This document shows, piece by piece, positions 12,860 to 15,628 of a stretch of DNA of 53,530 nt; within the stretch, counting starts at the first letter, position 1, and every line of letters starts with the position of its first letter. The notes under the pieces were generated by a model. The model was not told where the DNA came from, did no database searches, and saw only the letters and a list, made by a program, of their open reading frames with translations. Location of the stretch: contig JAJTGK010000008.1 in assembly GCA_021297815.1 (NCBI GenBank), positions 1 to 53,530 of the forward strand, written 5' to 3'. This stretch comes from Planctomycetaceae bacterium. Its GTDB lineage: Bacteria > Planctomycetota > Phycisphaerae > Phycisphaerales > SM1A02. A program made the position numbers and the translations under genes.

Positions 12860-12912
12860 CCCCAGATCAGACCGTCGCCGTCGGTAGGGCCAAACGGTCG
12901 AAACCTAGTGCG

Positions 12913-12949
12913 CCGCGACCCGGATTTCCGCCCGGGTCGCGGTGTTTTT
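12913..12949 (+). terminator. Intrinsic terminator after the phytase-like gene
   Basis: A perfect 11-bp stem (12913-12923 with 12932-12942), then TGTTTTT. It isolates the phytase-like gene from the next unit. Confidence 0.9.
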
Positions 12950-12987
12950 CGGCCTTGGCATGCGGCGCGAGGGGAAGTCGGCAATCT

Positions 12988-13057
12988 GTGGGTCCCAGCT
13001 GAGAGACGGGGCCGCGGTGCGCGGAAGCAGGTTGCCTCAGGCAGACGCCCCACCCAC
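12988..13057 (+). promoter_or_regulatory. Structured leader before the NOS unit, with faint glycine-riboswitch-like blocks
   Basis: An outer stem GTGGGT (12988-12993) can pair with ACCCAC (13052-13057). An inner stem CTGAG (12999-13003) can pair with CTCAG (13036-13040). The single-stranded blocks GAGAGAC, GCGGAAGCAG (13021-13030) and CTCAGGCA occur in the order GAGAGAC, GCCGAAGGAG, CTCAGGCA of glycine aptamers, but with two changed core bases and a short helix. The resemblance may be chance. A terminator-like or SD-sequestering element downstream is not obvious. Confidence 0.2.
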
Positions 13058-13098
13058 CCCGCGTCCGGGGAGCGGGGCCGAGCGAGGCGGAGGAACCC

Positions 13099-14325
13099 AT
13101 GCACCAGATCGCCGACACCACCGTCACGACGCTGCCCCGAGCCGCGGCCGATTTCCGACAGACGAGGCTGCAGCGCGTCGCGGCCGCGCCGCGCGCGGGT
13201 GGCGCGTGGTTCGAGCCGCAGGCGACGCGTGCGGCGGGGGCGCGGGTGGTGCTTGTCGACCTCACCGAGCAGTACCCGCTGCCCGCACGCACGGTCGGTC
13301 TGGCCGCGGCGGCGCTGCGGCTCGCGGGCCATCAGGTCGATGTCGTGCTGCCCGACGCGGCGGTCGGGCGCATGCAGGCGTGGTCGCGCGTCGAATCGGC
13401 CCGCGAGCGGCTCGTGCGTCGCATCGCGATGTCGCGCGGGGTCCTGGCGCAGGTGCTGACGGCTGCGGACCGCTGTGGTGCCGCGGTCGCGTCGCGCGTC
13501 TCGGGATCGGCCGCGGCGGAGGGCCTTGCGAAGGCGCTCGCGACGCGCTGCGACGCGGTGCTCGTGGCGGTCGATGGGTCGTCGACGAATGCCGTGCGGT
13601 CGACGCGCGCACTGGCGACCGCGCGCGGCGTGCGCCATGACGAGCTCGGTTCGACATCGGCCGACGCGCTGCTGCGCGGCATGACGACCGACATCGCGCT
13701 TGTGGCCGACTACAGCGACTACCCGTGGGACCGCACGCGCGTCCTGCCCATCGAGGCGGGCGCGTCGAGCGCGCAGATGGTCGCGCACGAACTGCGTGAA
13801 CTCGCGCGGCGCCATGGCTGCGCGGACTTCGTCTTCACCGACCGCGCGCTTGATGCCAACGCTTCGCGCTTCGCCGCGATCATCGATGGGATGCAGCGCA
13901 ATGTGCCTGGCGCGCAGTGGATCGCGCGGTTCAGCCCCGCGGCTGCGACGGAGCCGATGACGCGCAAGACCGTGCGCGCGGCCGCGGCGGCAGGCCTGCG
14001 GCGCATCACGATCGCGATCGACCGCGAGGGCTTCGCGGCCGCAGCCGCGCTTGCCGAACTCGCAGGTGACGCGGGCGTCGCGGTCGAGGGGCGTTTCTCC
14101 TCCGATCTCGTGCAGCAGGGCGCCGCGACCATGCGCGAGCTCGCCGTGTTTCTCCGCGACAACGCCGCGCGGTTCGACAGGGTCCGTGTGTTCGCGCAAG
14201 GCGCCGGCGGCACCACCGCGTCGACGGGCACCAACGCCGCACGCCTCGAACTCACCGGCGCCATGCACGCCATCAACGCACGACCCGCACGCCGCGCCGC
14301 CCTCACCTTCGAAGGCATCGCCTGA
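13099..14325 (+). CDS. B12-binding/radical-SAM-like protein lacking the FeS cysteines
   Basis: 408 residues; GGAGG just before ATG 13099 supports the start. Residues 48-90 read like the Rossmann domain of B12-dependent radical-SAM proteins (RVVLVDLTEQYP then LAAAALRLAGHQVDVVL). Residues 228-310 read like the radical-SAM barrel: an HELRELARRHG helix, the FVFTDRALDANASRF strand-loop, and AAAGLRRITIAIDRE where the family has the AGC-RR-GIES strand. The expected CxxxCxxC cluster between them is absent. The whole protein has only three cysteines (126, 151, 241), none clustered. So it cannot bind the usual cluster and may be a structural or regulatory relic. It lies 34 bases upstream of the NOS gene, with an apparent shared leader. 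The fold assignment is inference from pattern alone. Confidence 0.55.
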   Translation: MHQIADTTVTTLPRAAADFRQTRLQRVAAAPRAGGAWFEPQATRAAGARVVLVDLTEQYPLPARTVGLAAAALRLAGHQVDVVLPDAAVGRMQAWSRVESARERLVRRIAMSRGVLAQVLTAADRCGAAVASRVSGSAAAEGLAKALATRCDAVLVAVDGSSTNAVRSTRALATARGVRHDELGSTSADALLRGMTTDIALVADYSDYPWDRTRVLPIEAGASSAQMVAHELRELARRHGCADFVFTDRALDANASRFAAIIDGMQRNVPGAQWIARFSPAAATEPMTRKTVRAAAAAGLRRITIAIDREGFAAAAALAELAGDAGVAVEGRFSSDLVQQGAATMRELAVFLRDNAARFDRVRVFAQGAGGTTASTGTNAARLELTGAMHAINARPARRAALTFEGIA

Positions 14326-14359
14326 ACCGCACGCGCCAAGGACCAGCAAGGACCACACC

Positions 14360-15628
14360 ATGATCCTCGAGACCTCCATCAGCTCGAATCCCCTGCGGCA
14401 GCGCCTGCGCCAGCTCGATCTCGGCACGCGCCTCGCCGAGGCCGAGTCGTTCATCCGCCAGTTCCACCGCGAGAACGAGCTCGGCGACGACGCCTGCCGC
14501 GCGCGCCTGCGCGAGGTGCGGCGCGACCTCGAGCGCGCGGGGCACTACGACCACACGCCCGAGGAGCTCGCGTTCGGTGCGCGCGTCGCGTGGCGCAACC
14601 ACGCGCGCTGCATCGGAAGGCTCTTCTGGAAGTCGCTCGATGTGCACGATTGCCGCACGATCTCCGACCCCGCGGGCATCGCCTCGCGCATGGTCGACCA
14701 CATGGTCGGCGCGCGCGGCGACGGGCGCATCCGCTCGACGATCAGCGTGTTCGCGCCCGTGAAGGGCGACGAGCTGCCCGCGCATGTCGAGAGCAGGCAG
14801 ATCGCGCAGTACGCGGGGCATCTGCGCGGCGACGGCAGCATCGTGGGCGACCCGATCGCCGTCGAGGCCACGCGCGCCGCCAAGGCGCTCGGCTGGCGCG
14901 GCCCGCGCTCGGAAGGCATGTTCGACCTCCTGCCCATCGTGATCTGTGACGCGCGCGGGCGGCGCCACCTCTTCGAAATCCCCGAGGGAACCGTGCAGGA
15001 AGTCGCGATCGAGCACCCTGGTTTCCCCGCGCTCGCCGACCTCGGCCTGCGCTGGTACACGGTGCCCTGCGTGAGCTCGATGATCATGACGATCGGCGGC
15101 ATCGAGTACCCGTGCGCGCCGTTCAACGGCTTCTACATGGCGAGCGAGATCGCCTCGCGCAACTTCGTCGACGAGACGCGCTACGACCTGCTGCGGCCGC
15201 TGGCGCGCGCGCTCGCGATCCGCGAGAGCGACCCGCTGTGGAAGGACCGCGTGGTCACCGAGCTCAACGCTGCGGTGCTGCACTCGTTCCGCGCGGCGGG
15301 CGCCACGATCCTCGACCACCACACCGCGAGCGCGCAGTTCATGGACTTCGCGCAGAAGGAGACCGCGTCAGGCCGCACGCCCAGCGCCGACTGGATGTGG
15401 ATCGTGCCGCCGCAAGCCCCGTCGGTGTGCCCCGTCTACCACCTGCCGATGCGCGACCGCAACCTCGTGCCGAACTACTACTCGTCGCGCGCGACCGACG
15501 GCGCCCACATCGGCGTGCGCCCCGACGAGGAATCGCGCTGCCCCGTGACCCGCGGCCTCGGCCGCCTCGGCCGCGTGCTCGGCGGCTTCGCCGGCCGCAA
15601 GGCCGCATCGGTCTGCCCGTTCGCGTGA
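14360..15628 (+). CDS. nos: Nitric oxide synthase oxygenase (bacterial NOS)
   Basis: 422 residues from ATG 14360 (AAGGA upstream). Family motifs are all in place. WRNHARCIGR gives the haem-ligand Cys84. PFNGFYMASEI carries the substrate glutamate Glu263. DHHTASAQF is at about 319-327, and DWMWIVPP (344-351) carries the pterin-side tryptophans. The enzyme oxidises arginine to citrulline and NO using electrons from a separate reductase, since no reductase domain is fused here. Oddities: the usual Trp in GWYM is Phe258, and a tail of about 45 residues after PNYYSS contains CPV and ends in SVCPFA. It is about 60 residues longer than Bacillus NOS. The upstream partner is the cysteine-less radical-SAM-like protein. 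It converges on rsmA with 10 bases between. Confidence 0.95.
   Translation: MILETSISSNPLRQRLRQLDLGTRLAEAESFIRQFHRENELGDDACRARLREVRRDLERAGHYDHTPEELAFGARVAWRNHARCIGRLFWKSLDVHDCRTISDPAGIASRMVDHMVGARGDGRIRSTISVFAPVKGDELPAHVESRQIAQYAGHLRGDGSIVGDPIAVEATRAAKALGWRGPRSEGMFDLLPIVICDARGRRHLFEIPEGTVQEVAIEHPGFPALADLGLRWYTVPCVSSMIMTIGGIEYPCAPFNGFYMASEIASRNFVDETRYDLLRPLARALAIRESDPLWKDRVVTELNAAVLHSFRAAGATILDHHTASAQFMDFAQKETASGRTPSADWMWIVPPQAPSVCPVYHLPMRDRNLVPNYYSSRATDGAHIGVRPDEESRCPVTRGLGRLGRVLGGFAGRKAASVCPFA

Follow-up and report, generated by a model that had tools for sequence, protein, structure and literature searches.

The question raised by this locus is what a radical-SAM-like protein that has lost its iron-sulphur cysteines does directly in front of a nitric oxide synthase (NOS). 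To our knowledge, bacterial NOS has few dedicated partners, and its purpose in most bacteria is open. The two genes lie on the forward strand of the window, the whole stretch of 53,530 nucleotides analysed here. The first open frame (P0001; 13099..14325, + strand) encodes a degenerate B12-binding/radical-SAM protein of 408 residues, a predicted pseudoenzyme according to profile alignment and model-based fold matching. The second (P0002; 14360..15628, + strand) encodes a NOS oxygenase of 422 residues that matches PF02898 at 420.6 bits (E 6.4e-126), above the cut-off. Its catalytic motifs are intact, and it carries the haem-Cys motif RCIGR and the substrate-Glu motif FNGFYMASEIASRN. The genes are separated by 34 nt (14326..14359) with AAGGA ahead of the NOS start, and a purine-rich stretch precedes the start of both. 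A sequence-only reading had described a 408-residue frame 34 bases before a complete NOS gene, and both the coordinates and the PF02898 match agree with that description.

The gene upstream of P0001 (9905-12856) encodes choice-of-anchor I and phytase-like esterase domains with a C-terminal dockerin-type domain. Between this gene and P0001, a GC-rich hairpin followed by a run of T (12915-12948) appears terminator-like by eye; the scan gave no report of it. The window contains no riboswitch or RNA family at gathering level, and only chance matches occur in 12860-13130, upstream of P0001.

The affiliation of P0001 becomes apparent at the level of profiles and folds. A Pfam scan returned nothing significant, a PDB sequence search with P0001 as the sole query gave zero matches, and a scan of genome contigs with the single sequence found nothing; an alignment of the intact forms was needed to detect loci. 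The only Pfam or NCBIfam model that matches P0001 at E < 0.001 is TIGR04072 (rSAM_ladder_B12, a B12/radical-SAM family of lipid biosynthesis), with 19.8 bits and E 2.5e-4, far below its curated cut-off of 360 bits. The intact homologue tested scores higher with TIGR03975 and other models than with TIGR04072, and lies below all NCBIfam cut-offs shown. When P0001 is compared with a profile built from 32 intact homologues, its residues 44-407 align at E 8e-32 (hhalign), and the homology extends across the radical-SAM core. The AlphaFold model (pLDDT 81, pTM 0.78) predicts a near-complete barrel, although the predictor's input alignment contained intact relatives and is thereby biased toward the radical-SAM fold. 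A partial TIM-barrel is present in the model, with Z scores of 14-19 to the best radical-SAM and B12-radical-SAM chains; the closest are AprD4 (Z 19.1), TsrM (16.7) and OxsB (16.6). The model of an intact homologue best matches TsrM, MgmA and OxsB. The likeness to B12-binding radical-SAM proteins first proposed from the letters is thus borne out by both the profile alignment and the fold.

What P0001 has lost is the catalytic centre. The only cysteines left are Cys126, Cys151 and Cys241, as had been read from the sequence. A block of about 23 residues that holds all three FeS cysteines of the relatives (CQWxxCxFC) is missing, and the junction lies at residues 221/222 (13759..13764, + strand), where alignments place the absent segment GRGCQWxxCxFCSD...GRTxRT. 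The absence of the cluster was therefore read correctly, but its spacing in the close family is C-x4-C-x2-C and not CxxxCxxC. The SAM-binding regions of the relatives have also been replaced: GLESGSQR and GxPGE correspond to AIDRE plus a gap and to SSDLVQQ in P0001. Of the N-terminal B12-type Rossmann domain, a remnant is traced by alignment and by the secondary structure of two models to residues 49-185 (13243..13653, + strand). It keeps four strands where the intact homologue has five, and the GGPxFN...GGE loop is gone. The best-conserved part in the alignment is the first half of the radical-SAM barrel, residues 199-335 (13693..14103, + strand). This block is 39% identical to a degenerate homologue in a related genome (G008) and 38% identical to an intact one, against about 9% expected from composition. 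Besides this segment, the C-terminal end INxRxxRRxAxxF(D/E)G is kept.

P0001 has its predicted fold and, as far as the remnant of the B12-type domain shows, its two-domain architecture in common with the cobalamin-dependent radical-SAM enzymes TsrM, OxsB, CysS and MgmA and with AprD4. It differs from all of these in that the cysteines of the cluster are gone, together with the GLESGSQR and GxPGE regions and a portion of the B12 domain. Its intact homologues keep an FeS motif together with the radical-SAM and B12-binding domains. P0001 is most likely a pseudoenzyme, that is, a homologue of an enzyme that has lost its catalytic residues and is predicted to be retained by selection.

Within the order, every NOS gene found is paired with a P0001 homologue. 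Homologues of P0001 were found in eight other genomes in a search of 101 relatives. A PF02898 scan of the same 101 genomes found NOS in seven genomes, with eight genes in all, each directly behind a P0001 homologue. Together with the window, all nine NOS genes of the order (8 of 400 genomes carry NOS) have a radical-SAM homologue immediately 5' on the same strand, five of them intact and four degenerate. The intact homologues, of about 500-540 residues with GRGCxWxxCxFCSD, occur in G003, G015, G078, G010 (copy 2), G009 and G077; a contig end truncates the homologue of G009, and G077 has no NOS. The G078 protein matches radical-SAM PF04055 at E 9e-14 and B12-binding PF02310 at E 1.3e-5, the latter below the gathering cut-off. 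The degenerate homologues are those of the window, G008, G002 and G010 (copy 1), and in all four the segment with the three-cysteine [4Fe-4S] motif is absent from the alignment. In G010, both forms stand in tandem (L024:9353-14832), a dead radical-SAM gene with its NOS followed by an intact one with another.

Beyond the order, the intact form is widespread. A scan with the intact alignment over one genome per species led to 80 homologue loci, which were fetched and which span Pseudomonadota, Planctomycetota, Kiritimatiellota, Actinomycetota and others. In 35 of the 80 (most of L031-L071, with L074, L082 and L099), belonging to Pseudomonadota, Planctomycetota and Kiritimatiellota, NOS lies directly downstream at a distance of 0-108 nt measured between alignment ends, and the genes often overlap. 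The hosts in which an intact radical-SAM gene directly precedes NOS comprise sphingomonads, Rhodobacterales, Methylobacteria, Burkholderiales, planctomycetes and a Kiritimatiellota MAG. All full-length radical-SAM proteins of NOS pairs at the fetched loci keep C-x4-C-x2-C. Starting from NOS, all three NOS genes among 199 Sphingomonadaceae genomes are paired with a radical-SAM gene, as are those of two of the three NOS-bearing genomes among 374 of the family of a Paracoccus; the third NOS is distant (39% identity). Every closely related NOS in these surveys has its radical-SAM partner. The distant NOS of G266 (41%) has no radical-SAM match within 1.5 kb, and distant NOSs on Nostoc, Natribaculum and Deinococcus plasmids have no annotated radical-SAM neighbour. 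In one genome (G1247; L128, L129), a NOS beside a radical-SAM gene is split across two frames, possibly as a pseudogene or through a sequencing error. Since intact versions precede the same kind of NOS in dozens of other bacteria, the pair looks like a conserved two-protein system.

These results place the dead form in perspective. The sequence-only reading had linked a dead B12-radical-SAM scaffold to NOS, and had named a missing fold match, missing NOS pairing or homologues that keep the cluster as grounds against it. Profile homology, fold, conserved pairing and constraint uphold the link, but most homologues keep the cluster, so that the dead form is not the basic state and the idea that all homologues have lost it is wrong. 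Cluster-bearing homologues pair with NOS as well, which makes the dead form a later derivative of a catalytic radical-SAM-NOS module.

The dead form is carried by four species of the genus of the window. Their NOS partners group as a single clade (100/100), which lies inside the NOSs that have an intact partner. The radical-SAM tree places the dead forms, with very long branches, in a group of 11 rows (97/92) whose other members are mostly planctomycete NOS-linked proteins, and the grouping of the four themselves reaches a support of only 78/88. All four have the same absent segment and a two-residue gap ahead of it. The single clade of NOS partners, the shared absence of the segment and the shared gap make a single loss likely: the radical-SAM protein probably died once, and the dead form then persisted. 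Misassembly was considered as a source and is unlikely because the dead forms come from four separate assemblies. No intact NOS-linked radical-SAM gene was found elsewhere in G000, G002 and G008, whose assemblies are incomplete.

The substitution pattern of the dead protein bears on whether it is maintained or slowly eroding. Between the dead proteins of G010 (copy 1) and G002, dN/dS is 0.30 (pN 0.106, pS 0.298), and purifying selection is thus visible in this pair. Their NOS partners give 0.11, and intact pairs give 0.07 for the radical-SAM protein and 0.04 for NOS, the latter with saturated synonymous sites. The higher value of the dead pair, compared with its NOS partners and with intact radical-SAM proteins, shows that constraint is relaxed. 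The main rival to a functional protein is a decaying relic: the radical-SAM step would have become dispensable, the frame would be eroding slowly although still open, and NOS would work alone. Such decay agrees with the relaxed dN/dS, with the very long branches, and with the further shortening of the forms of G008, G002 and G010 (copy 1) to 308-356 residues. It is nevertheless unlikely, since the frames are open in four species whose NOSs are at most 67% identical to that of the window, selection still acts, and the dead forms have a conserved block in common. For example, the window and G008 differ at pS 0.63, with synonymous sites near saturation, yet the block remains 39% identical.

The short spacing of the genes suggests a further alternative, that the upstream frame is kept only for translational coupling to NOS and that the protein itself has no function. 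The gap is 34 nt in the window, as against only 10 nt in G010 (copy 1) and G002, and overlaps are frequent among the intact pairs. Coupling alone leaves the amino-acid constraint and the conserved block unexplained, and we regard it as very improbable. Another possibility is that a new function, in catalysis or in ligand binding, arose on the radical-SAM scaffold of P0001, such as handling of haem or pterin or sensing of NO, still within the NOS pathway. The largely kept predicted fold, with its near-complete barrel, and the dedicated NOS neighbour would suit such a role. However, no cysteine is conserved among the dead forms, they have only about half of the barrel in common, and no known ligand motif was recognised, which makes a new role rather improbable, if less so than coupling alone.

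The reading that we consider most likely, with moderate confidence, is that P0001 is a non-catalytic partner subunit that would bind NOS. Its ancestor would have been the catalytic B12-binding radical-SAM enzyme that many bacteria encode directly before NOS. In the ancestor of the four genus members, this enzyme would have shed its SAM-binding motifs along with the segment for the FeS cluster, while the dead gene stayed ahead of NOS and its protein remained under constraint. P0001 would share a transcript with NOS and would bind NOS as the intact protein presumably does; such binding would serve to position, stabilise or regulate the enzyme.

The C-terminus of NOS may bear on this partnership. 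Most NOSs with an intact partner have a basic, aromatic C-terminal tail with a median of 41 residues past the PNYY/PNFY anchor and a median net charge of +8; L053 and L099 are exceptions among the intact pairs. The NOSs with a dead partner lack this tail and have SRCP[FV]xRG in its place, which is common to all four and in the window forms the start of SRCPVTRGLG (15533..15562, + strand). NOSs that have no radical-SAM partner have short tails, some of which end in or near CPF or CPV. The exchange of the tail appears to date from the stage at which the radical-SAM protein died. As each change is one event on one branch, the link amounts to a correlation of one. A bolder and distinctly tentative reading is that a B12-radical-SAM protein and NOS form a physical machine in many bacteria, and that in this genus the radical-SAM half became a pseudoenzyme regulator of NOS while the docking tail of NOS was exchanged in step.

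As for the intact module, its gene neighbourhoods give some hints. All NOS-linked radical-SAM proteins fall among the closer relatives in the tree, and NOS is absent from the loci of another clade, which comprises 36 proteins (100/100). Within this sister clade of intact proteins (L072-L110), some directly adjoin an EpsE-like GT4 glycosyltransferase. A glycosyltransferase lies within 4 kb in 22 of the 35 NOS loci and in 8 of the 45 others, as judged by home-made gene calls on loci of differing length. The pair also occurs on plasmids. In Jannaschia sp. W003 it lies on one of 21 kb, beside genes for a glycosyltransferase, a nitroreductase and a Crp/Fnr regulator; a conjugative Novosphingobium plasmid carries radical-SAM, NOS and glycosyltransferase genes in this order with overlapping ends. 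The Jannaschia region (L121:6127-15684) also encodes two hypothetical proteins that have no Pfam match. Among the genomes searched with a close radical-SAM protein and no neighbouring NOS, seven of eight contain no NOS anywhere. The intact cluster of homologues in NOS-less genomes weakens the notion that the radical-SAM enzyme serves solely to modify NOS (its tail, for example). For this reason a pathway common to both proteins, perhaps with a glycan or glycosylated product, is weakly favoured over it.

The module is apparently undescribed, and its intact form is more general than the dead one. A literature search, whose coverage left out most subscription papers and preprints, found no paper that pairs NOS with radical SAM or cobalamin, except that both terms occur in PMC7674941 on 8-azaguanine. 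The text of a paper on NOS-guided mining (PMC10831120) makes no mention of radical-SAM or cobalamin. Bacterial NOS oxygenases of biosynthetic clusters, such as PtnF of 8-azaguanine, are likewise single-domain NOSs encoded beside partner enzymes; the present subfamily is marked by a radical-SAM partner and often a glycosyltransferase.

P0001 is a predicted radical-SAM pseudoenzyme that stems from an apparently undescribed radical-SAM-NOS module. Across several phyla, and on plasmids too, one NOS subfamily stands nearly always behind a B12-radical-SAM gene, which hints at a pathway that joins NO or N-hydroxyarginine chemistry with that of radicals. In the dead form, catalysis and partnership with NOS, the two roles of the radical-SAM protein, come apart, so that it offers a way of asking whether these proteins bind each other.
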